Below, one piece after another: positions 9,135 to 23,833 of a DNA stretch of 33,940 bases. The stretch is taken from positions 1 to 33,940 of the forward strand of contig JAUSKC010000023.1 of assembly GCA_030647125.1 (NCBI GenBank). Direction: 5' to 3'. Source of the DNA: Nanobdellota archaeon (GTDB lineage Archaea > Nanobdellota > Nanobdellia > Pacearchaeales > GW2011-AR1). The notes below the pieces were generated by a model, which was not told the origin of the DNA, did no database searches, and was given only the letters and a program-made list of their open reading frames with translations. Position numbers and translations under genes: made by a program. Numbering within the stretch: position 1 is the first letter of the stretch; the number at the start of each line of letters is the position of its first letter.

Positions 9135-12100
9135 TTAAAACCAATGTTTTAAATTTTCTTGCTTTTCCAGTTCTTTCCCAAAAATAGAATCAATCTGCCT
9201 TTTTACTAATTCAACACTTTGTTTTATATAAGGAGATAAGTTATATTTATCAATTAAATTCATTGCCGGGTCAAGATATTTTTTTATTCCCCCTTCATGA
9301 ATTGTAAAAATAATTTTCCCTTTACAAACCGGACAAACCCCACTTAAAGGAGGTCGCCTCATAATTTCATTGCAGTTAACACACCTGAAACCTTGCATAG
9401 AAAATTTCCTCAAATTACCTTTCAAATCCCTTATAAAATGCCTTTCAATTATCAATCGCGCAACATCTGAAGTGTCAACCGCTCTTATTTTTTCAACAAG
9501 CGCCATTTGATGCTCTACTTTTTCTTTCATAGTTCCCAAAAGTTTGTAAGATGAACAGTTCACTCCTTCGTTAAAATTGTTTGTATCGTGTGTAAAACCA
9601 ATTCCAATAAAAGGATTTTTTCCTTGCTTCAACAATTTCTTAACTATAATAATACTTTCAACTTCAGAACTATGTTTTCTTTGTTCTGCTTTTATATACA
9701 ATTCTAAAGGATAGCTATTTCCTGCTTCCATAACTAATTCTAAATCAAGAATTTGTTCATCAACTTCTCCCGCTTCTATACGCGCATTCAAAACTAATGG
9801 AGCGTCTTGTGTTCCTCCCCTATGGCTTGGCAAGAATTCTCTGGAAAAATTAATTAATACATCAGAAAGCAACATTATTGCAGCTTCATCACCATCACAA
9901 TCACGTCTCATTGCAGCATGCATGTAAGGAGATGCAACAAGACCTTGAACTCCTGAAAACCCAACAAATCTACATATAACTCCTGCGCAATTATGCGGTG
10001 CCATACAAACCCCTAATTTCCCGACGAGATCTTCTCTTTTTTTAACATTATAAATCGGCTCTACCCCATAAAACTTCACCAAAAGTTCATCAATAAAATT
10101 GCATGTCTTCAAAAAAACATCGTCGGCCTTTTCATCCGGACTTTCCAAACATGAAGGAAGCAAAATATCATGAGGAAATAATTCTAAAATTTGTTCTTCA
10201 TTTTTTAAAGGCATTCCATAAATATCTTCATTATATCCAATTTCACATAATTTAGCTACACTAACTCCAACTTCCTTTGGCTTAAAAGCAGTTAGGGGTA
10301 ATTCAGTAACATCATATCTTATCGTCCCGTCCTTATTAACTTGTAAACCATACTTAGCGCGCAGAATCCCTTTCATTAAATTTTCAGGAATTTTTTTATC
10401 CGAACTCAACCCCCTCACTCCTTTAATTAAAACAGGAATCTCAAGATTGTTTAATTTTAATTTATTAACAGCATCGTTAAAATAATGATTTATGTCCAAA
10501 TCCTTAATCATACTAAAATTTCCTTTTTCATCACCCATCTCTTTTTCCAAACTTATTGTATCAGAATTTCTATAATAATATTTTCTTACACATTTATTTC
10601 CGCATTTTTCACAAGTTAAATAAATCGTTTCCACCCCGCATTTTTCACAATAAAATAAAGGAAAACTTGATCTGACTTTTCCAACTTTGCACGCTTCATG
10701 AACACTTCTTAATCTTCCACCCTCATTTCCTACTGGGAATAAAACATTCGGGCTCCCAATCAACTTTCTCAGCTTTGCTTTTTCTGGTCTGCCCATTCTT
10801 GTTCCAATAAAATCTCCTGCCTTATCTTTTATAACAAATTCAGAAAGCTCATTCACTTTTTCCAAAACATTTTTTTCATCATTTATAAGAAATTTGTCAG
10901 CAATAAAATCATTAAGAAATAATTCGTCACTTTCAAGCAAACTTAAATCCAACCCGATATTTGTAAAGAACTTTTTGCTGCTAATTTTTGAAAGAACAAC
11001 ATTCTCGACGACAAAATCATGCTCTACTCCAAGCAACTCCAAAGCCCTCTTCCCGAAGTTATACTTTTCCCACTCGCTTTTTCTAAAAGGCAAAACTATT
11101 TTGCCATCCCTTATCTGGGAATTCTTTAACCAAACTATCAACTCATTAAATTGTTCTTTATTTATCTGGCTCCAATAAAAAATATTCTTAGGATAAAGGG
11201 GAATGCTATATTTCTTGCTTAAAGCAATCGACTCATAAAAATCAACATCCCAAAAATTTAAATTCCCTTCATAACCTTTACTTTTTAATTCTAAATTCCA
11301 CCATTCTTCAACATAGCCAGGATTTATCAAAGGAGAATTTCTATTTAATACATCTGAAAACGGGACGAGCAAGTCACCCAAATAAATAATTTCTTCAACA
11401 TCTGAATAAAGTTTAGTCGCCTCTTCTTTTGTTTTTAACTGCTTTACACTTCCATTAAATAATTTTACAATTGGTCCTTCAACACAATCACAAACTGAAA
11501 CCGCGCATCCCTTAGTTGGCTTTTCAATTTTTAATTGCGTTCCTGTTGCGATAAAATTATCTGTGATTGCCATAGTTGCAGGATGTAATGACGTAGCTGA
11601 AAAACCAGACATTCTTCCACGGCCATATCTAAATCTTAATGCCCCCGATCTTGATGGATGCCCAAAGATCGGGCGACCAGCAACCAGATCCTTAATGTAA
11701 GGTGGGATATTATCACTTGAACTTTTACCCTTCACCGATGTCAATTTCTCATGAAGTTCTATATATTCTTTCAAGAAATCAAATCCAGTTGCTTGAATTC
11801 CATTCTTCTTGACCCCATTATAAAGCCTCAAACCTTTTGCCGCTTTTTGTGCAAGACCTTCAGAGAAAACTAAACACATTCCTCCCCTAAGATTGTTTGT
11901 TTCAATTCTTTCCAAATTTTTATAATTAGAAACTTCAAATTTTTCAGTTGGTTCGCCGCAAATTTGTATTGGTAAATGCCTTGCTAAAAAATCAATTTCT
12001 TTTTCCAAAGGTAAATATTGCAAATTAGTAACCCTTTCATGATAATCATAATTTTCCGCGATATATCTTTTGATTTCATCTTCTGTAGGATCGTACTTTG

Positions 12101-12623
12101 CATACCCAAATAATTCTCTTAAATAATCTATTAACATTAAAACAATACATGATGCCGTCGTCCCCGAACTTCTTATAGGACCGGAAAAATATGCTTTCAA
12201 ATAATCTTTTCCGTCGCGTGTTTTTGCCAATTTAACTTCTGTAAAACCTTCTATTGGACTCGATACGACCCCCAAAGTTGTATAAGCAAAACCAATTCTT
12301 ATTCCAGCATCAATTGCTTGTAACAGCGACGCAAATTGACAGAATTTTTGCTTCGCAACCTCTTCAGCAATTTTAAAAGAAACAGTCGCGTCCAATTTAC
12401 CATAACTTTTTTCAAGTTCTAAAATTCTTTCAGTTATTCCCGAATTCATAACTTGTGGATATATTGTCGCAATAAGACCTACACACTTTTCAGCCATGCT
12501 TTTTGCTAAAGGAATTTCAACTTTATCAACAGGATCAAGCCCTTTAGAACGCGCGTCCTCAGCGACGCTGTAAACTTTCCTTACATCTTTTTCAAGATTT
12601 ATAAAATATTGTTCAATTTGCAT
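9135..12623 (-). CDS. polC: DNA polymerase II (PolD) large subunit DP2
   Basis: 1162 aa with DP2 signatures (MHAAMRRDCDGDEAAIMLL, GRPEKAKLRKL, zinc ribbon CEKCGVETIYLTCEKCGNKC); no intein evident. Confidence 0.97.
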   Translation of the reverse strand: MQIEQYFINLEKDVRKVYSVAEDARSKGLDPVDKVEIPLAKSMAEKCVGLIATIYPQVMNSGITERILELEKSYGKLDATVSFKIAEEVAKQKFCQFASLLQAIDAGIRIGFAYTTLGVVSSPIEGFTEVKLAKTRDGKDYLKAYFSGPIRSSGTTASCIVLMLIDYLRELFGYAKYDPTEDEIKRYIAENYDYHERVTNLQYLPLEKEIDFLARHLPIQICGEPTEKFEVSNYKNLERIETNNLRGGMCLVFSEGLAQKAAKGLRLYNGVKKNGIQATGFDFLKEYIELHEKLTSVKGKSSSDNIPPYIKDLVAGRPIFGHPSRSGALRFRYGRGRMSGFSATSLHPATMAITDNFIATGTQLKIEKPTKGCAVSVCDCVEGPIVKLFNGSVKQLKTKEEATKLYSDVEEIIYLGDLLVPFSDVLNRNSPLINPGYVEEWWNLELKSKGYEGNLNFWDVDFYESIALSKKYSIPLYPKNIFYWSQINKEQFNELIVWLKNSQIRDGKIVLPFRKSEWEKYNFGKRALELLGVEHDFVVENVVLSKISSKKFFTNIGLDLSLLESDELFLNDFIADKFLINDEKNVLEKVNELSEFVIKDKAGDFIGTRMGRPEKAKLRKLIGSPNVLFPVGNEGGRLRSVHEACKVGKVRSSFPLFYCEKCGVETIYLTCEKCGNKCVRKYYYRNSDTISLEKEMGDEKGNFSMIKDLDINHYFNDAVNKLKLNNLEIPVLIKGVRGLSSDKKIPENLMKGILRAKYGLQVNKDGTIRYDVTELPLTAFKPKEVGVSVAKLCEIGYNEDIYGMPLKNEEQILELFPHDILLPSCLESPDEKADDVFLKTCNFIDELLVKFYGVEPIYNVKKREDLVGKLGVCMAPHNCAGVICRFVGFSGVQGLVASPYMHAAMRRDCDGDEAAIMLLSDVLINFSREFLPSHRGGTQDAPLVLNARIEAGEVDEQILDLELVMEAGNSYPLELYIKAEQRKHSSEVESIIIVKKLLKQGKNPFIGIGFTHDTNNFNEGVNCSSYKLLGTMKEKVEHQMALVEKIRAVDTSDVARLIIERHFIRDLKGNLRKFSMQGFRCVNCNEIMRRPPLSGVCPVCKGKIIFTIHEGGIKKYLDPAMNLIDKYNLSPYIKQSVELVKRQIDSIFGKELEKQENLKHWF

Positions 12624-14213
12624 TTACTTTACCACCCAATTATCTTTAGAGTAATCCTCAAAATCTAAAATCTTGACCGCGCGTGTCTTCAAATTAAATA
12701 AAGGAACTTTGCAAAAATCCGGTTCATTTCCCATTTTTTCTTGAAAGGGGGTTTTGCTTTCCCAACATGAACCAGATATTACTAAAATATTATTATAATA
12801 AGAAACTGCACTCTTATGGGTATGTCCTGAAAAAAAAATATCTGGAATTTTTTGTATGATATGAAAATCATTTTCTGATGGGAAATATTGGGCTGAAGAG
12901 TGTGTCGGGGCCAAATGCCTTTGACTCAAAAGATAATGCATTATCTTGTCAGGTGTATGCGCGGCTTTTTCTTTCATTAATCTTGAAATATTATTTGCGT
13001 AAAAATGATAAGACATTCCATGATACATTAAAACATCAAACCCGGAAAAATCTTCACACACCCCGATATTAACATAAGAAGGATTTGTTGTCAAAATAAT
13101 ATTTTTCAAGTTGTATAAGGGCCAGGCATATTTCTCGTCGAGCAATGGTTGCGGCTCCATTAATCTTAAAGCATCATGGTTTCCAGGGGATATAATTATC
13201 TTAATATCTTTTCTTATCTTACTAAGAAGTTCCGCGACTTTCAAATACTGTTGTTCAACATCCGGCAAAACCAAATCTTTTTCTTGTCCTGGATACTCTC
13301 CAACACCTGCAATTAAATCCCCAATCAAGAATAAATATTTAATCTTCTCCACTTCAGGAGTGTTTGGAATCTTTCCATTCAAATAATCTATAAATTTTAA
13401 AAATTCACTTTCCAAAAACCTATTAGACCCGACATGCATATCTCCTGTAAAAACAGCATATTCTTCTTTTGGACTTTGTTTTCTTTTACTAATCATCGCG
13501 TCCGGAAAAATAATATCATTAACAAAAACGATCTCCTGATTTCCCGAGCATTTAATTCCAATAACAGAATCTAAAGCAACTTCTTCAGTTTTAGCAATAA
13601 GCTCTGGCTTGCTTGCATGAATTAATGCCTTAATCTTACCTGTTAAATCTTCAATTTCTAAAATAACATTTTTATTTTTTGTGTAGCTTTTGTTTGCAAC
13701 CAATCCAATTAAAGAAATTCCTTGCCGGTTTCCAGAAATTTTATTTATAGATACTAAGTTATTTAGTTCTGAATGTTCTTGTAAAATCTTCTTCATTTCC
13801 CCAAGTCTCCCCCTAAAATGTCTTACAAAATCACCTACTTCTAACTTTTTCAAAGGGATTGAAGGCATTGATAAAACCCTTACATCTTCAAAATTTTCTG
13901 TCTTAACTTCCCCAACAGATTTTTCAATAGAAACTTCTTTTGAAATTTCAATACTTAAACCTAATTTTATTTTAAAAGTCTCTAGGCCTTTCTGGCTTTC
14001 TTTCGGAAGGCCTATCATAAAATTTTCTAATTGATTCCTATTCTCATTAAATAAATTTTTAGTAATGACTTTTTTATGTGTTTGGTTCTTTATTTTTTCT
14101 ATAATAAGTTTAACCGATTCAACATCCTCTGTTTCACTAAATAAATTTAGGACTTCCTTGTCTAAAAGTAAGCCATTGCTGACACAAAATCTTAAAATTT
14201 CATTCGACACCAT
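12624..14213 (-). CDS. polB: DNA polymerase II (PolD) small subunit DP1 (calcineurin-like 3'-5' exonuclease)
   Basis: Phosphoesterase motifs GDMHVGS, GDLIAGVGEYPGQE, SPGNHDA, GHTHKSA; OB region upstream; abuts DP2. Confidence 0.96.
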   Translation of the reverse strand: MVSNEILRFCVSNGLLLDKEVLNLFSETEDVESVKLIIEKIKNQTHKKVITKNLFNENRNQLENFMIGLPKESQKGLETFKIKLGLSIEISKEVSIEKSVGEVKTENFEDVRVLSMPSIPLKKLEVGDFVRHFRGRLGEMKKILQEHSELNNLVSINKISGNRQGISLIGLVANKSYTKNKNVILEIEDLTGKIKALIHASKPELIAKTEEVALDSVIGIKCSGNQEIVFVNDIIFPDAMISKRKQSPKEEYAVFTGDMHVGSNRFLESEFLKFIDYLNGKIPNTPEVEKIKYLFLIGDLIAGVGEYPGQEKDLVLPDVEQQYLKVAELLSKIRKDIKIIISPGNHDALRLMEPQPLLDEKYAWPLYNLKNIILTTNPSYVNIGVCEDFSGFDVLMYHGMSYHFYANNISRLMKEKAAHTPDKIMHYLLSQRHLAPTHSSAQYFPSENDFHIIQKIPDIFFSGHTHKSAVSYYNNILVISGSCWESKTPFQEKMGNEPDFCKVPLFNLKTRAVKILDFEDYSKDNWVVK

Positions 14214-14244: not shown

Positions 14245-15453
14245 TTAATTTAATGTTTCATTAATTATATGTTTGGCTTTTTCTATAATATTTTTTGATA
14301 TGGCAAGCCTAATTTCCCTCATTCTGCCGCCTCTTCCTTTAGAAATTACCCTAACATTAATTATTCCTAACATATCAAACTCTTGGATTATATCTGAAAC
14401 ACGTCTTTGAGTTAAAACCTCCACCTTATATCTTGGGCATAAATCTTGGTAATAATTATAAACATCCCCTGTAAAAATTAATTCATCATTCTTTTTTCTT
14501 TCATTTAAATCTATAATTGATTTTAAAACAATTTGAAATTGCTTTGGCTCTGTTTTAATAACATCTAAAATCTTATCTTTTTCAATTTTATTATTTGCCT
14601 CATCAATATGTTTAAGCATAACTTTACTTGAATTATCCCTCTCAGCAAGTTCGCCCGCTATCCTTAGTAAATCAAGCGCTCTTCGTGCATCTCCATGCTC
14701 TCTAGCAGCAAAGGCGGCACATTTAGCGATGACCCCATCCTCTAAAACCCCTTGATTAAAGGCAATTTCTGATCTTTTACTCAAAATATCTTGAAGTTGT
14801 AGCGCATTATATGGAGGAAAGACAATTTCTTCTTCACCTAAAGAACTTCTTACTCTCGGATCTATTTCATCTAAAAAAGTCAAATCATTACTTATTCCTA
14901 CAATACAAATCTGCGTCTTACTCAATTCTGAATTAAGCCTTGTTAAATTATATAAAAACCCATCAGAAATTTTTTTAACTGTTTGATCAATTTCATCTAA
15001 AATTAAAATTAAAATTTGTTTTTTAGAATCAATTATTTCAATAAACTTAGCATAAACTGACTCTGTAGGCAAACCCGTTGCAGGCACTTCCCCCCCAACT
15101 TTTTTAATTAATTCAGCCAAAATTCTATATTCTGTATCTGAAACCTTTCTCAACTTACAATTAAGATACTCAATTCTTAAATCAAAATCTAAAGTTTGAT
15201 TAAATCTTCTCAAAAGCTCTTCTTTGACAAATTGTATACTTAATGTCTTTCCAGTTCCAGTTTTTCCATAAAGAAATAAATTACTTGTCTTTTCTCCTTT
15301 CAAAACAGGAGCAAGAATAGAGGCAATCTGTTTAATCTGTTCGCTTCTATGAGGAATTGTTTCAGGATTATAATTCGACTGAAGTATTGATTTATTTTTA
15401 AAAACTCCTTTCTTCGCAATTGAATCAAAAATTTGATCTAAATCATTAACCAT
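14245..15453 (-). CDS. orc1/cdc6: Orc1/Cdc6 replication initiator, AAA+ ATPase with wHTH
   Basis: Walker A LYGKTGTGKTLS, Walker B ILDEID, sensor region, C-terminal winged helix; beside AT-rich origin-like intergenic region. Confidence 0.96.
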   Translation of the reverse strand: MVNDLDQIFDSIAKKGVFKNKSILQSNYNPETIPHRSEQIKQIASILAPVLKGEKTSNLFLYGKTGTGKTLSIQFVKEELLRRFNQTLDFDLRIEYLNCKLRKVSDTEYRILAELIKKVGGEVPATGLPTESVYAKFIEIIDSKKQILILILDEIDQTVKKISDGFLYNLTRLNSELSKTQICIVGISNDLTFLDEIDPRVRSSLGEEEIVFPPYNALQLQDILSKRSEIAFNQGVLEDGVIAKCAAFAAREHGDARRALDLLRIAGELAERDNSSKVMLKHIDEANNKIEKDKILDVIKTEPKQFQIVLKSIIDLNERKKNDELIFTGDVYNYYQDLCPRYKVEVLTQRRVSDIIQEFDMLGIINVRVISKGRGGRMREIRLAISKNIIEKAKHIINETLN

Positions 15454-15468
15454 AACATCACACCATTA

Positions 15469-15481
15469 TTTCCTTTGGAAA
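15469..15481. promoter_or_regulatory. ORB-like dyad 1 (TTTCCTTTGGAAA)
   Basis: Perfect 5-bp arms, 3-nt centre. Confidence 0.55.
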
Positions 15482-15565
15482 ATAAAAATTTAAACTAATC
15501 TACCTCGAAGAAAATTAAGATATTATATAAAAAATTATAACTACTAATAAAGAAGGACACCTTAA

Positions 15566-15578
15566 TTTCCCATGGAAA
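15566..15578. promoter_or_regulatory. ORB-like dyad 2 (TTTCCCATGGAAA)
   Basis: Perfect 5-bp arms, 3-nt centre. Confidence 0.6.
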
Positions 15579-15768
15579 GTAAAATAAAGAGTAAATAATA
15601 TAATTTTTTATTAATTTTTTTATTTATTTAATACTTCTACTTTTTAATTTATATTTTTAATTAATTATTAATATAATATAATAATTATATATAATATATA
15701 TACTATATAATATAAATTTTTATAAATAAAATAAAAACAAACAAAAACAAACAACTCTTTTTAAAACA

Positions 15769-15797
15769 TTTCCATACGAAATCATAGGGTGACACCC
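15769..15797. promoter_or_regulatory. ORB-like dyad 3 with adjacent GGGTGACACCC palindrome
   Basis: TTTCCATACGAAATCATAGGGTGACACCC: dyad with one mismatch followed by G-string element, as in archaeal ORBs. Confidence 0.65.
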
Positions 15798-15941
15798 CCT
15801 TTTATATTTAAATTACCAATCAAAATCTTAAAAAATTAGTTAATATTTTATTAGAATCATTAAAAAACCAAAAACAATATCACTCAAAAACTATGTTTTT
15901 TTCATAGAAAACTTTATAAATTTGCTTTTTATTTTTTCAAC

Positions 15942-16247: not shown

Positions 16248-16664
16248 ATGAAATTAGTGGGATTTAGTTTTAATAAAATAGTAGCTGAGAAGATTTCTAT
16301 GGAAAGACCTAAAAATTTAACAATAAACACTGGAATAGACATTTCTACAATTTCTAAGGCAGACACAGAGATTTCTATGGGTAAAGAGGAAATTTTACAT
16401 ATAACTTTCAATTATAAGATTGAATATAACCCCAAATATGCCCAAATTCAGTTTTCTGGAGAGGTCTTCCTAGGAGTTGACAAAAAAATTTCTTTAGAAA
16501 TTTTAAAACAGTGGAAAGAGAAAAACCTTTCTGAAGAGTTTAAAATATCCCTTTTTAATATTATCTTTCGTAAATCAAATATAAAAGCCCTAGATTTAGA
16601 AGACCAAATCGGCCTTCCACTTCATATTCCTTTACCGCGCCTTTCTGGTGAAAAGAAAGATTAA
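16248..16664 (+). CDS. Hypothetical protein; possibly SecB-like fold
   Basis: Strand-rich 138 aa with FNKI..EK.......INTGIDIS...LHITFNYKIEYNPKYAQIQFSGEVFL; SecB-like assignment is tentative. Confidence 0.5.
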   Translation: MKLVGFSFNKIVAEKISMERPKNLTINTGIDISTISKADTEISMGKEEILHITFNYKIEYNPKYAQIQFSGEVFLGVDKKISLEILKQWKEKNLSEEFKISLFNIIFRKSNIKALDLEDQIGLPLHIPLPRLSGEKKD

Positions 16665-17039: not shown

Positions 17040-17849
17040 ATGGATCAATTAAAAGAGGCGTTCCAAAAAGTAAAATATGATATTGATTCTATAAAATTAG
17101 AACTTTCATTCTTACATAACTACCTTAAAGAAGATAGAGAGAAGATGATAGAAATTGTCGAATTAATGTCTAAACTAAATCAAAAAATCTCTTTGCTTAA
17201 TTTAAATATAAATAACATTAAAAGTAAAGTAGAAGACTATTCAATCCCCTCTTTATTTTCATTTCCAAACTTAATCCCTCAAAGTTCGTACAATCCTCAA
17301 GATAACAATTCAACACATACTCCCACACATAACCCCTCAAATAAGACAAATCCAACACATACTCCCACACATAATACCCTCTTTAACCCCTTAAACAACC
17401 AAAATTCACCTATTTCCATAGGAAATGAGGGGGTTCCAACAGACAGACAGACAGACCAACAGACAGACGTTTCGACAGATCTTTTGGTTAAAAATGTGCT
17501 TAAAAACACCCTAAACCCCATAAACGACGCAGCAAATATTCTAACCTCTTTAGATGCTTTAAAAAAAGAAATACGGCTTAAATTTAAACGCCTTACAGAA
17601 CAAGAAATAATCGTTTTCTCGACGATATATCAATTAGAAGATGAAATGGGTTATGCGGACTATAAATCTATTTCAGATAGGTTAAAACTTACTGAAAGCT
17701 CTATAAGAGACTATGTCGGGCGTTTAATAATTAAAGGAATTCCCGTCGATAAAAAGAAGTTAAACAATAAATCTATTCAATTGAATATTTCCCAAAATCT
17801 TAGAAAAATTGCCTCTTTGCCTACAATTCTCCAATTAAGGGATCTTTAA
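17040..17849 (+). CDS. Coiled coil - low-complexity linker - C-terminal HTH protein (paralogue A)
   Basis: N-terminal heptad-like helix, Thr/His/Pro/Asn linker, C-terminal LTEQEIIVFSTIYQLEDEMGYADYKSISDRLKLTESSIRDYVGRLIIKGI HTH. Confidence 0.8.
   Translation: MDQLKEAFQKVKYDIDSIKLELSFLHNYLKEDREKMIEIVELMSKLNQKISLLNLNINNIKSKVEDYSIPSLFSFPNLIPQSSYNPQDNNSTHTPTHNPSNKTNPTHTPTHNTLFNPLNNQNSPISIGNEGVPTDRQTDQQTDVSTDLLVKNVLKNTLNPINDAANILTSLDALKKEIRLKFKRLTEQEIIVFSTIYQLEDEMGYADYKSISDRLKLTESSIRDYVGRLIIKGIPVDKKKLNNKSIQLNISQNLRKIASLPTILQLRDL
17311..17374 (+). repeat. Exact 22-bp direct repeat CAACACATACTCCCACACATAA, two copies at 42-bp period (inside CDS)
   Basis: 17311-17332 and 17353-17374. Confidence 0.9.
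17413..17433. promoter_or_regulatory. ORB-like element inside CDS (TTTCCATAGGAAATGAGGGGG)
   Basis: Perfect TTTCC-N3-GGAAA dyad followed by G-string, closest match to ORB architecture in the window. Confidence 0.6.
17438..17470 (+). repeat. ACAG/ACAGACAGACAG microrepeat inside CDS (encodes TDRQTDQQTD)
   Basis: CAACAGACAGACAGACAGACCAACAGACAGACG. Confidence 0.85.
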
Positions 17850-18101: not shown

Positions 18102-18722
18102 CTACCCATTTTCCTCTGTTTTTTTGTCTTTTTTACCTTTATTAACTCTCACTTTCGACTTTTTGAGCATATTTTCCTTCATTTCTTCCCGAATAAACAC
18201 TCTTTTTTTGCCATTTTTCTCTACTTGTTCTTCTATTATGTCACTTTTTGATTTTATTGAATTTATTTGACCTCTTATTGTTGATCTCTCTTTTCCAAGC
18301 ATGGCTCCCAAATCATCATAGCTTAATTTCATGTCACTATTTAATAATATCCACAATATTGCTCTTTCAGTAACTGAAAATTGGTCTAAATTCGGTGTTT
18401 GAACACCTGTTTGAACACCTGTTTGAACAGCATAAACACCTGTTTGTTTGTTCAACACCTGTTTGGGTGTTTGAAATTTTTTAATTTGTCTCATTTCAGA
18501 AGTCATAGAAACAACATTTTTAATTCCTTCAATATCATTTTGTATCGTCGATAAAAGCTCTTTTATTTCTTCAATATCTCTTTCCCTCATATTATTCTCA
18601 GAATCAAGGTGTTTAATCCATCCACTTACAGCAGTTATATCTTTTTTAACAGATTCAAATCCAACCTTAGTGCCTTCTCTAAGATTCTCCACCTCTCTTT
18701 TTCCTGTAAACAACCAAAACAT
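18102..18722 (-). CDS. Coiled coil - QTGV repeat linker - C-terminal HTH protein (paralogue B)
   Basis: N-terminal helices, QTGVYAVQTGVQTGVQTP linker, FSVTERAILWILLNSDMKLSYDDLGAMLGKERSTIRGQINSIKSKSDIIEEQ HTH aligning with paralogue A. Confidence 0.8.
   Translation of the reverse strand: MFWLFTGKREVENLREGTKVGFESVKKDITAVSGWIKHLDSENNMRERDIEEIKELLSTIQNDIEGIKNVVSMTSEMRQIKKFQTPKQVLNKQTGVYAVQTGVQTGVQTPNLDQFSVTERAILWILLNSDMKLSYDDLGAMLGKERSTIRGQINSIKSKSDIIEEQVEKNGKKRVFIREEMKENMLKKSKVRVNKGKKDKKTEENG
18402..18465 (+). repeat. Four exact copies of AACACCTGTTTG inside paralogue B CDS
   Basis: 18402-18413, 18414-18425, 18435-18446, 18454-18465. Confidence 0.95.
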
Positions 18723-18832
18723 CTTAATATAATTACAAAAAATCTATTTAAAAATGTTTTGTTCCGTCGATATAACCTCGTCGCTGACACCTGTCTGACA
18801 TCTGTCGAAAGATGTGCTGGATGTGCTGGAAA

Positions 18833-18973
18833 AACACCTGTTTGTCAAAAAAAAGTTAGGCAAACAGCCTGTTTAAACACCTTTAAACACCCAAACACCC
18901 TTCCAAACACCTGTTTGCCTTAGAATTATTTCTTTAATCTTACCGTCGATAAATACATTCAAACACCTGTTTG
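18833..18973 (+). repeat. Three exact copies of AACACCTGTTTG plus degenerate half-sites upstream of paralogue B
   Basis: 18833-18844, 18906-18917, 18962-18973; also AAACACCTTT, AAACACCC x2, CAAACAGCCTGTTT between them. Confidence 0.95.
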
Positions 18974-19010
18974 CTTTAATAAATCTCTCAAAAAAGTTTA
19001 TTCCAACATA

Positions 19011-19029
19011 TACTTAGATGACCTAAGTA
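19011..19029. promoter_or_regulatory. Dyad TACTTAG-ATGAC-CTAAGTA
   Basis: 7-bp perfect arms, in intergenic region between divergent genes. Confidence 0.5.
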
Positions 19030-19092
19030 CACAACATCCCATTCAAACAAAAATCTACTAAAAAATCCCTACAAAATTTTATAAACTATTTT

Positions 19093-19110
19093 TTACTAAT
19101 CTTTTAGTAA
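19093..19110. promoter_or_regulatory. Dyad TTACTAA-TCTT-TTAGTAA just upstream of the 19128 CDS
   Basis: 7-bp perfect arms, operator-like position. Confidence 0.5.
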
Positions 19111-19127
19111 ATAACTTTTATTAAAAA

Positions 19128-19406
19128 ATGGGGAGAAAAATCTTGAATTTCTTTTATCTTGGAAGGCAATTTAAAAAAGAGTTTAAGAAACAATTACGGC
19201 TTCTTATTGTTGTTAGTTTTGCTTTTACAATGGCCTTCACCTGGCGTCAGACTACTTTCGACCTTTCACAATCTCTCGTCCAATTTTTCTTCCATATCCA
19301 AAATTCAGATACTTTAAGTGTGCTCTCTTCAATTCTAATAACCATAGCCAGTATATTTTTCATTCTTTTAACTTCTTACATCTTAAAAGATCATGACGAA
19401 TATTAG
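19128..19406 (+). CDS. Small membrane protein, DUF5654-like
   Basis: Two TM helices, FKKEFKKQLRLLIVVSFAFTMAFTWRQTTFD pattern. Confidence 0.65.
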   Translation: MGRKILNFFYLGRQFKKEFKKQLRLLIVVSFAFTMAFTWRQTTFDLSQSLVQFFFHIQNSDTLSVLSSILITIASIFFILLTSYILKDHDEY

Positions 19407-19460
19407 TCCCAAAAGGCAAATATTAGATAACTATATAAATCCCAATACCCTATAAAATAA

Positions 19461-19616
19461 ATGGTAAGTACAATTTTAACCATATCAGCAGTCTTAGCTA
19501 TTTTAATAGGAATTTTAGTGTTGGCTATACCAAAATTCTTGCGTTATGCTGTAGGATTATATCTTATTTTAATGGGAATCTTACAATTAGTAAATCTTTA
19601 TTACCCTATATATTAA
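19461..19616 (+). CDS. Small membrane protein, DUF3096-like (51 aa)
   Basis: MVSTILTISAVLAILIGILVLAIPKFLRYAVGLYLILMGILQLVNLYYPIY*; below the ORF track length cutoff. Confidence 0.7.
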   Translation: MVSTILTISAVLAILIGILVLAIPKFLRYAVGLYLILMGILQLVNLYYPIY

Positions 19617-19801
19617 TCTATTAATTAATAAAATATTTATCTTCTTATAAAATCCTTTAAATAATATTTAAACAACCTCTTGAACTAAGCTAACCTTTGT
19701 GCACAATCTCCCCAAAAACAAAAATAATAACTCAAATTTCCGACGAAAACATATATTATTTTATAGAAATCATTAAAAACTTTATTTACTCTAAATTTTT
19801 A

Positions 19802-20155
19802 ATGTCAAATATCTATGATGATTTGAATAATGCAATTAAGGGAAAATTTTATTTTTTAGGTAATGAATTAGTTAGGGCAACGATATTATTACCACAATCT
19901 AAATCTGTTGAGGTAATTTATGATAAAATTGATCAAAGAACTGGAGAAGTTATAGGTCATGATAGAATAGATCTAAAAGAAGCATATTTACTTGACAGGG
20001 TTCAAGATGTGAAGATTTTATCTCGATTAGAACAACAAGCCCAGAGTGCACAAAGCCAACCTAAGAGCACACAATCAGATCCTTTAGATTTGATTCTTCA
20101 AGAAGGAGAAGATGCAACACCCTCCCAAGTTGCAAAAGATCTTGGTTTATGTTGA
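19802..20155 (+). CDS. Hypothetical protein (about 117 aa; ORF track extends to 19697)
   Basis: Likely start MSNIYDDLNNAIKGKFYFLG; Q/S-rich linker QQAQSAQSQPKSTQSDP. Confidence 0.6.
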   Translation: MSNIYDDLNNAIKGKFYFLGNELVRATILLPQSKSVEVIYDKIDQRTGEVIGHDRIDLKEAYLLDRVQDVKILSRLEQQAQSAQSQPKSTQSDPLDLILQEGEDATPSQVAKDLGLC

Positions 20156-20178
20156 TTTTCCCTCAAAAACCCCTAAAC

Positions 20179-20228
20179 GTTCGTACTATCCTTATTGTAA
20201 GTAGTTAGTATTATGCCAAAGTACGAAC
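20179..20228. repeat. Inverted repeat GTTCGTAC / GTACGAAC in intergenic region
   Basis: 20179-20186 and 20221-20228; GTTCGTAC also at 17284-17291. Confidence 0.7.
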
Positions 20229-20806: not shown

Positions 20807-22414
20807 ATGAAAAACAATAAGCCTTTTTTCAAAAAGAAAAATTTTGAGCATAGAAAAGATTTCCCTGTACAAGCGCAGCCATTCTTAGTTAAGGATCTTT
20901 CTTTAGAAAGTGTTGGTAAGACTGCTTTGTTAAAAGGGCTTGTAGATGGAATTTCACAGACTGAAGGCCCAACTTTATTTTATTTAGATGATGGTACAGG
21001 AACTTTTACATTAAAGGGTTTTATTGGTCCTGGAAAAAGAGCTTATCCTGAAATTGAAGAAACTAATGCTGTCAAAGCAAAAGTTCAAATTAAAGAGTAT
21101 AATGGAACTTTAGAAGGGGAAATAATAAAATTAGAAAAACTTGAAGGTCAAGATGCTGAATTTGTTAAAAAACAAATTGAAGAAGTTCAGCGTCAAAGAG
21201 CAAAACCGATAAATACAGAATTTCTAATAAAAAGTAAAATCTTGGAAAAATTAAAATCACATTTTATAAAAGCCGCGACTGAAATTCGTTTAGCAATCAT
21301 ACAAAATAGGCCTATTATAGTGAGACATCACAACGATGCTGATGGTTATTCGTCCGGATTTGCATTGGAAAGAGGAATTTTACCTTTAATAGAAGAACAA
21401 CATAGCTCTTCAAAAGCGGCATGGGAATTTTTCGTTCGTTCTCCATGCGCTGCGCCTTTTTATGAAATAGATGATTCAATTAGAGATACTTCAACTTCTT
21501 TAAGGAACGCAGCTAAATTTTCAAATAAAATGCCTTTAGTAATAATTGCGGATAATGGTTCAACTGAACAAGATTTATTTGGGATTCAGCAAGGAAGAGT
21601 TCACGGAATGGATTTCATCGTCGTTGACCATCATCCTTACGAAGAGGATGTAATTTCAAAAGAAGTTAAGGCGCACATAAATCCATTTTTAATTGGTGAG
21701 TCAGGTTCAGAATTTTCTGCTGGAATGTTATGTACTGAATTAGCTCGTTTTATCTCACCTGTTTTAAATATTTCACAAATTCCAGCTATGGCAGGTTTAG
21801 CAGACAGAATAAATAATCCTGAAGCAATGGAACAATATCTAAAAATTGCGGAGAAAGAAGGTTATTCTAAAGAATTGTCTAAAAAAATTGCAACTGTAAT
21901 CGATTTTGTTTCTGCAAAATTGCGTTTTATGGAAGCGCGTGAATATATTGAAGTCTTATTCGGCGAACCAAGAGGAAAACAAAAGAAATTAGTTGATTTA
22001 ATGATTCCTTATATTAATGATTTAGAATCAAAAGGCCTTGAAATTGCAAAATCTGCAGCAAAGACTGAAAAGATTGGAGACAAAACTTTGCAAACTTTAA
22101 TGATAGAAGAGACCTATCCTGGTTTTGGTTTTTATCCTAAGCCAGGAAAGGCATTGGGAATGTTGCATGATTGGATTCAAACAGAAAAGAAATTAGACAA
22201 AGTTGTTTCTGCAGGAATAATGAGTTCTGCAATAACTTTGCGTGCAACCGATGGCGCGGAATTTTCAGTTCACGAATTCATGAATTTAATTGATAAAAAA
22301 ATCCCAAGCGCATTCGTCGAAGGTGGAGGACACAAAAACGCAGGCTCAATTACTTTCGTTCCAAACAAACGAAAAGATATTTTAGAATTATTAAGGGAAT
22401 ATCTGAAGAAATAA
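20807..22414 (+). CDS. DHH-family RecJ-like exonuclease with N-terminal OB-fold
   Basis: OB-like GLVDGISQTEGPTLFYLDDGTGTFTLKGFIG; RHHNDADGYSSG; IADNGSTEQD; VVDHHPYEED; C-terminal GGGHKNAGS (DHHA1). Confidence 0.88.
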   Translation: MKNNKPFFKKKNFEHRKDFPVQAQPFLVKDLSLESVGKTALLKGLVDGISQTEGPTLFYLDDGTGTFTLKGFIGPGKRAYPEIEETNAVKAKVQIKEYNGTLEGEIIKLEKLEGQDAEFVKKQIEEVQRQRAKPINTEFLIKSKILEKLKSHFIKAATEIRLAIIQNRPIIVRHHNDADGYSSGFALERGILPLIEEQHSSSKAAWEFFVRSPCAAPFYEIDDSIRDTSTSLRNAAKFSNKMPLVIIADNGSTEQDLFGIQQGRVHGMDFIVVDHHPYEEDVISKEVKAHINPFLIGESGSEFSAGMLCTELARFISPVLNISQIPAMAGLADRINNPEAMEQYLKIAEKEGYSKELSKKIATVIDFVSAKLRFMEAREYIEVLFGEPRGKQKKLVDLMIPYINDLESKGLEIAKSAAKTEKIGDKTLQTLMIEETYPGFGFYPKPGKALGMLHDWIQTEKKLDKVVSAGIMSSAITLRATDGAEFSVHEFMNLIDKKIPSAFVEGGGHKNAGSITFVPNKRKDILELLREYLKK

Positions 22415-22919: not shown

Positions 22920-22996
22920 TAAAAAAGCCCTTTTAAGTGTTTCTCTTAATTAATTTGAAACCAAAATTATATAAAACAGTTCGCACAATACTGATT

Positions 22997-23833
22997 ATGA
23001 CCCCACAACAATTCCTTGAAAAATTAAAAGTTGAACTAAAGATATCTAAGAATTCTGAATACACAATTAGAAATTACACTCGGGCGAATCAAAATTTATT
23101 AAATTTTACAAAGAAATCCCCTGAACAAATTAATGAGGATGATGTTAAACTTTATACAGCTGAAAATATTTCAAACCAATCAGCAATGACAATAATACTT
23201 TTTTTATCTGCAATAAAATATGCTTATCTAAATATTCTAAAATTAGATCCTACAATAGGAATTAAACGTCCCAAAAGAGAAAGGAAAATCCCATCTGTTT
23301 TAACAAAAGAAGAACTGAGATCTCTAATTAATGCTATTGACACGAGAAAATCCAAACTTATGGTGTCATTAACCTATGCATGTGGTTTCCGTGTATCTGA
23401 ATTGTTGAATCTAAAGATAAATGATTTGAAGTTTGAAGAGCAAACAGGATATGTTAGGCAAGGAAAAGGCAAAAAAGACAGGGTATTCAACATACCAAAT
23501 TTTCTAGTTGACGATTTAAAAAAACAAATTGAAATTCAAAAAGAATCAAATCAGGAATTTTTGTTTACAGGTCCAAAAGGGAAATTATCTTCTCGTAACA
23601 TTCAAAAAATTGTTTCTTCTGCCGCTTTTCGTGCCGGAATAGATAAAGATGTGCACCCCCATACATTAAGGCATTCATACGCCACTCATCTTTTAGAGAA
23701 TGGAACGGATATAAGATACATTCAAGAATTGCTTGGCCATGCCGATCTTAGCACCACCCAATTATATTCTCATGTTTCAACACAACAATTAAAAAAAATA
23801 AAATCTCCTATTGATTCACTAATGGAAAAATAA
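22997..23833 (+). CDS. xerA: XerC/D-like tyrosine recombinase (archaeal XerA type)
   Basis: GFRVSELL, HPHTLRHSYATHLLENG, LGHADLSTTQLYSHVS; ORF track start 22937 is probably upstream of the true start. Confidence 0.92.
   Translation: MTPQQFLEKLKVELKISKNSEYTIRNYTRANQNLLNFTKKSPEQINEDDVKLYTAENISNQSAMTIILFLSAIKYAYLNILKLDPTIGIKRPKRERKIPSVLTKEELRSLINAIDTRKSKLMVSLTYACGFRVSELLNLKINDLKFEEQTGYVRQGKGKKDRVFNIPNFLVDDLKKQIEIQKESNQEFLFTGPKGKLSSRNIQKIVSSAAFRAGIDKDVHPHTLRHSYATHLLENGTDIRYIQELLGHADLSTTQLYSHVSTQQLKKIKSPIDSLMEK

Follow-up and report, generated by a model that had tools for sequence, protein, structure and literature searches.

DNA sites in the codons of two neighbouring DNA-binding genes probably mark a conserved chromosome origin module in tiny archaea

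The 12-bp repeat AACACCTGTTTG of a Nanobdellota archaeon, analysed in a stretch of 33,940 nucleotides (the window; contig JAUSKC010000023.1), is one drifted version of the palindrome AAACAG(C/G)TGTTT, and its copies are read here as putative palindromic binding sites for the product of gene B within a conserved chromosomal origin module with the order orc1 - A >< B. The module was recognised from selection at the DNA level, restriction of the array to a single locus, synteny, an origin recognition box (ORB) and the pairing of site motif with recognition helix, and it is probably an oriC in which an Orc1 site lies inside gene A and an array that would be bound by B lies in and upstream of gene B. 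The array and gene B comprise the following features.

18102 to 18722, minus strand: gene B, encoding a 206-aa protein of no curated family
18402 to 18413, plus strand: array copy 1, in the gene B linker, QTGV frame
18414 to 18425, plus strand: array copy 2, in gene B, QTGV frame
18435 to 18446, plus strand: array copy 3, in gene B, QTGV frame
18454 to 18465, plus strand: array copy 4, in gene B, KQVL frame
18543 to 18553, no strand: second dyad motif TATCGTCGATA, inside gene B
18745 to 18754, minus strand: TATA-like box of gene B, TTTTTAAATA, found by eye between both array halves
18762 to 18772, no strand: degenerate copy of the second dyad, TTCCGTCGATA, directly upstream of the TATA-like box
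18833 to 18844, plus strand: array copy 5, upstream of gene B, non-coding
18861 to 18905, no strand: degenerate palindrome CAAACAGCCTGTTT and AAACACC half-sites between exact copies (from sequence and half-site enrichment)
18906 to 18917, plus strand: array copy 6, upstream of gene B
18941 to 18951, no strand: second dyad motif TACCGTCGATA, upstream of gene B
18962 to 18973, plus strand: array copy 7, upstream of gene B

The seven exact copies listed by the sequence-only reading were all recovered by motif search within positions 18402-18973 of the window, and they were the only exact ones in the 640-kb source genome (an assembly 88.6% complete), in which the reversed-control 12-mer had no match; a scattered repeat is thus ruled out. 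With up to two mismatches allowed, 13 matches were found against 3.2 +/- 1.8 expected, a number reached in 0 of 100 shuffles. The four intragenic copies, spaced by 12, 21 and 19 bp, all lie in the linker-coding part of gene B, and the three noncoding copies sit 111-251 bp upstream of its start codon. The earlier statement that all copies share one orientation holds for the two central bases only, the unit being an imperfect, near palindrome (CAAACA.CC.TGTTTG).

Protein B consists of an N-terminal coiled coil (residues 3-76), a disordered linker (78-116) and a winged HTH (117-187), a layout kept in other families of the archaeal class. Of the family's 181 genomes, 147 had a homologue of gene B, and the named matches were mainly Candidatus Pacearchaeota / Nanoarchaeota assemblies. 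AF2 models of both A and B showed a long helix followed by a disordered linker and a winged HTH, and the sites in both genes fall in disordered-linker codons, the array peaking over predicted disorder. Neither protein was a member of a curated family in sequence-family scans, and a PDB fold search with B returned generic winged-HTH matches only, none with E below 0.001. The second dyad (consensus TTTATCGWCGATAAA; 103 instances in the 61 loci compared) is probably the site of another protein of the locus, perhaps A. It also occurs at 17617-17627 and 17741-17751 of the window, in gene A, and its copy inside gene B sits in coiled-coil codons.

The assignment to an origin rests on the neighbourhood of the array, whose features are given below.

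9135 to 14213, minus strand: DNA polymerase D, DP2 (9135-12623) and DP1 (12624-14213), a replication neighbourhood
14245 to 15453, minus strand: orc1/cdc6 initiator gene (Cdc6_C 9.6e-28, Cdc6_lid 1.5e-26)
15454 to 15941, no strand: AT-rich intergenic region 5' of orc1, a candidate unwinding element from the GC profile
15469 to 15481, plus strand: mini-ORB TTTCCTTTGGAAA, 5' of orc1
15566 to 15578, plus strand: mini-ORB TTTCCCATGGAAA, 5' of orc1
17040 to 17849, plus strand: gene A, encoding a 269-aa paralogue of B, convergent with B
17413 to 17432, plus strand: full ORB TTTCCATAGGAAATGAGGGG, in gene A linker codons
17440 to 17469, plus strand: CAGA tetranucleotide repeat (RQTDQQTD) beside the ORB, in gene A

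That the repeat lies near an origin, as had been proposed earlier, is supported by orc1, the mini-ORBs and the single full ORB inside gene A. Sixty loci were fetched across the family, which with the window gave 61 Pacearchaeota-type loci; these come from mutually related metagenome assemblies, and the codon and pairing p-values ignore their shared descent. A and B were convergent neighbours in all 61, the order B >< A followed by orc1 was found in 59 of the 59 loci that reach as far as orc1, one of them being the window, and the median distance from B to orc1 was 3.8 kb. Protein A (coiled coil 3-66, disordered linker about 67-159, winged HTH) is paralogous to B over the winged HTH (hhalign 96.7%). 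Full ORBs were counted in three genomes, the window's, G032 (BPGA01000001) and G156 (JAQTST010000001), each of which had a single one; a strict pattern recovered the ORB from 81 of the 94 A genes, and it also occurs in the class outside the window's family. Its codons in A were TCC in 57/57 cases (6% background), GGG in 56/57 (24%) and CCA in 39/39 (29%), and the adjoining DRQT repeats used GAC in 58/59 (19%). The 4-bp repeat directly after the ORB is CAGA in the window's family and CACT, CACG or CAAT-like in others, all of the CANN type, with DNA-level codon bias seen in the window's family. The 1-kb profile window over the AT-rich region 5' of orc1 had 22.8% GC; in relatives, the 350 bp 5' of orc1 averaged 20.7% GC versus 31.3% for the loci, and mini-ORBs were present within 350 bp of orc1 in 25 of 59 loci. 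GC skew fits an origin at this locus loosely, with extrema (maxima) about 38-45 kb from the locus on the orc1 side in the near-complete chromosomes of G032 and G156 (7% of the contig) and at a distance of about 70 kb in another chromosome, read only in part; with an extremum displaced by about 40 kb, it was considered too imprecise as proof of an origin. A DHH-family protein, possibly of the RecJ/GAN nuclease type (20807-22414), and a tyrosine recombinase (22937-23833) are also encoded near the presumed origin. An ARAGORN call of tRNA-Glu at 16369-16470 was rejected, having no Rfam support.

A position so close to the presumed origin would also suit a parS-like centromere, with B as a partition protein that loads on it and moves the origin region together with a ParA/MinD-type ATPase. 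It is known that parS sites occur inside and near parB, and the palindromes similarly cluster at one origin-proximal locus, in and beside the gene of their presumed reader; additionally, ParA/MinD-type ATPases (AAA_31) were found in 10 of 10 genomes checked. However, AAA_31 also matches MinD and Mrp-type proteins, and in these ten genomes the AAA_31 genes lay on other contigs or far away, with no ParA gene at the locus. Unlike ParB, B showed only a generic winged HTH in Pfam and NCBIfam scans and AF2/Foldseek comparison, which revealed no ParB N-domain, CTPase, ribbon-helix-helix, SegB-type or ParB DNA-binding domain. Partition is a less probable alternative. An ORB in the partner paralogue speaks for replication, and this, along with the lack of a linked ParA gene, favours a role in initiation or its timing.

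The density of half-sites (AAACASS), 0.64 per kb elsewhere, rose to 20 per kb upstream of B and to 31 per kb in the linker. Half-sites were dense upstream of B in 61/61 loci and in its disordered-linker codons in 56/61, and formed two narrow clusters, one from about -300 to -50 and the other from about +200 to +350 of B. In most loci the top over-represented 8-mers of B and its upstream 600 bp were versions of AACAGCTG, AAACAGGT, GGTGTTTA and TGTTTAAA, which were almost missing from the remainder of each locus, and ACAGCTGT was observed 76 times in upstream noncoding DNA versus 1.6 expected. On two long contigs from relatives, of 535 and 623 kb, the densest half-site windows contig-wide coincided with gene B. 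An exact palindrome scan of 20 genomes placed the majority of matches at the B locus, with few stray copies and no match in three genomes, two of them of genus g50. Two refutations proposed earlier fail: the 12-mer shows no genome-wide scatter, and relatives that keep gene B do not lack the motif. In the distant families f24, f39, f49 and f53 hardly any of the array lies outside gene B, which suggests that the upstream cluster is an addition made in the order to which the window belongs. Further words, ACCTAAGT, AGTGCACA and AAGTTCGCAC/GTACGAAC, are shared about 0.6-1.5 kb upstream of B in relatives (about 19000-20200 of the window), and given these the module may be larger.

The same arrangement could serve as an autoregulatory operator, B repressing its own promoter by looping between the upstream and intragenic clusters. 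In the window's order both clusters flank the TATA box and start codon, and the second dyad lies immediately upstream of the TATA-like box, matches to which peak at -50..0 of gene B in relatives. Nevertheless, most of the upstream sites lie off the TATA box, at a distance of 100-250 bp from the start codon, the four families named above carry an essentially intragenic array alone, and repression of B would leave the ORB in paralogue A unexplained; an operator function is accordingly rather improbable as the explanation of the array.

The proposal that the encoded HTH protein reads the array gained indirect support from the joint switching of motif and recognition helix. Among all loci, B proteins with the helix STIRGQIN were accompanied by the same motif or its TGTCCAAACAGC form in 73 of 76 cases, and those with the helix VTVRRHIND by a different palindromic motif (GTTCATGAACG, GTTCATGAACGTT / GATTGAACG) in 13 of 13. 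No cross-over was seen, and both types occur inside families f49 and f53. Since motif type switches together with the recognition helix, B is likely the reader, and no other observation speaks more strongly for a possible binding of the array by B itself. A reading of the array by paralogue A, or by an A-B heterodimer, would agree with the winged HTH common to both proteins and with their constant adjacency, but is doubtful, as motif type tracks the helix of B, and in f49 the helix of A is similar throughout (ESGIRSYI, ESGVRSYI) although motif and B differ; in f53 A differs too, and the pairing there is not decisive between A and B. B-like genes with another C-terminal domain were mostly without an array. 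At loci L289-L295, B-like genes have an unrelated C-terminal domain and no array, with ORBs still found at L289 and L295. As some B-like genes of relatives lack the array, not all origins of the class can depend on it.

Selection on the DNA rather than on the peptide, suggested earlier from the change of reading frame, is strongly supported by the rare codons, the use of three frames and the noncoding copies in 60 relatives. In the window, three copies indeed read CAA ACA GGT GTT (QTGV) and the copy at 18454 reads AAA CAG GTG TTG (KQVL); the counterparts of the latter in relatives are KQLF/KQVF with invariant CAG and CTG/GTG, and the site overall is read as KQLF/KQVF, QTAV/QTGV or LNSV, which covers all three frames. 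In KQ(L/V)F copies, the Gln codon was CAG in 41/41 (39% background), the Leu codon CTG in 19/19 (3.6%) and the Val codon GTG in 22/22 (14%), and the Gly codon of QT(G/A)V copies was GGT in 51/53 (25%); these counts treat related genomes as independent, which makes the p-values too small, although synonymous sites across many genera should be well randomised. Coding and upstream copies agreed in their central dinucleotide (rho 0.56) and in GTT to GTC drift (rho 0.33), both values being without phylogenetic correction, and a concerted drift was set aside as only weak. A peptide-level origin of the repeat, in which tandem duplication of a VQTxVQTx linear motif, conserved within the window's family, would leave the DNA repeat as a by-product, is extremely improbable, and a peptide-only reading is ruled out by the codon and frame tests, by the same motif in non-coding DNA and by the persistence of a palindromic array in the VTVRRHIND type, which encodes the wholly different peptide QSFMNVQSFMNV and not VQTGVQTG.

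From these comparisons we infer that the 12-mers would be one lineage's form of a palindromic site for protein B, AAACAGSTGTTT, built of alternating AAACASS half-sites, in a bipartite array placed partly in the linker codons of B and partly just upstream of its promoter. With little constraint on their peptide, the linkers of A and B would have room for DNA sites, as gene O of phage lambda has for ori-lambda. Orc1 would bind the ORB in gene A and the mini-ORBs, and B dimers, held by the N-terminal coiled coil, would bind the palindromes cooperatively and could draw the intragenic cluster and the upstream one, which lie about 480 bp from each other, together in a single nucleoprotein structure, which may set or time the opening of the AT-rich region near orc1. 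Looping to the upstream half would not be general, because outside the window's order the array lies only inside B. A stronger but less likely version is that B may be a second, Orc1-independent origin-recognition protein with a dedicated replicator in its own linker codons, helix and array being inherited and switched as a unit across the class; this self-encoded initiator-replicator would stand beside Orc1/ORB, with the Orc1 box placed in the codons of paralogue A.

Lambda iterons fall in the hinge-coding part of gene O. At the lambda origin (ori-lambda), the inverted-repeat sites of the dimeric initiator O lie inside gene O, with an AT-rich element near (PMC5043065). The present locus similarly has multiple sites inside the gene of a presumed cognate DNA-binding protein, the cognacy being suggested by helix-motif pairing. 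Unlike lambda, it lies on the chromosome of a cellular archaeon with Orc1/Cdc6, its two paralogues each carry a different type of site (ORB in A, palindromes in B), the HTH of B is C-terminal and extra copies lie upstream; we know of no helicase-loader partner. Archaeal oriCs with Orc1/Cdc6 and ORBs have a common general structure (PMC4010727), and, as in Pyrococcus, Sulfolobus oriC1 and haloarchaeal oriC, orc1 lies here beside mini-ORBs in AT-rich DNA, with a G-run in the ORB, whereas the single full ORB inside a protein-coding gene and the second, palindromic array with its own presumed reader set the locus apart. Origin elements read by a non-Orc1 protein are found in Sulfolobus WhiP/oriC3 and UBP/ucm (PMC4010727; PMC12141716), to which the presumed non-Orc1 reader described here is comparable; UBP, however, a small beta-hairpin DNA binder, has sites by the hundred in the genome, in contrast to the single locus that carries them here. 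Sequence-family scans showed no homology of A or B to WhiP. No description of DPANN, Pacearchaeota or Woesearchaeota origins, or of such a locus, was found in the open-access literature searched.

Across a large class of tiny archaea, chromosome replication probably starts at a place marked by the DNA sites in the codons of A and B. The locus would define the chromosome origins of an archaeal class (Pacearchaeota- and Woesearchaeota-type genomes) and would name two conserved uncharacterised origin proteins, in whose neighbouring genes the same DNA seems to serve at once as the code for a flexible protein linker and as a docking array. It would also offer a natural series of joint changes in a recognition helix and the DNA sites encoded by the same gene, and origin firing in these tiny genomes would come within reach of a direct test that uses short DNA probes and a single purified domain.
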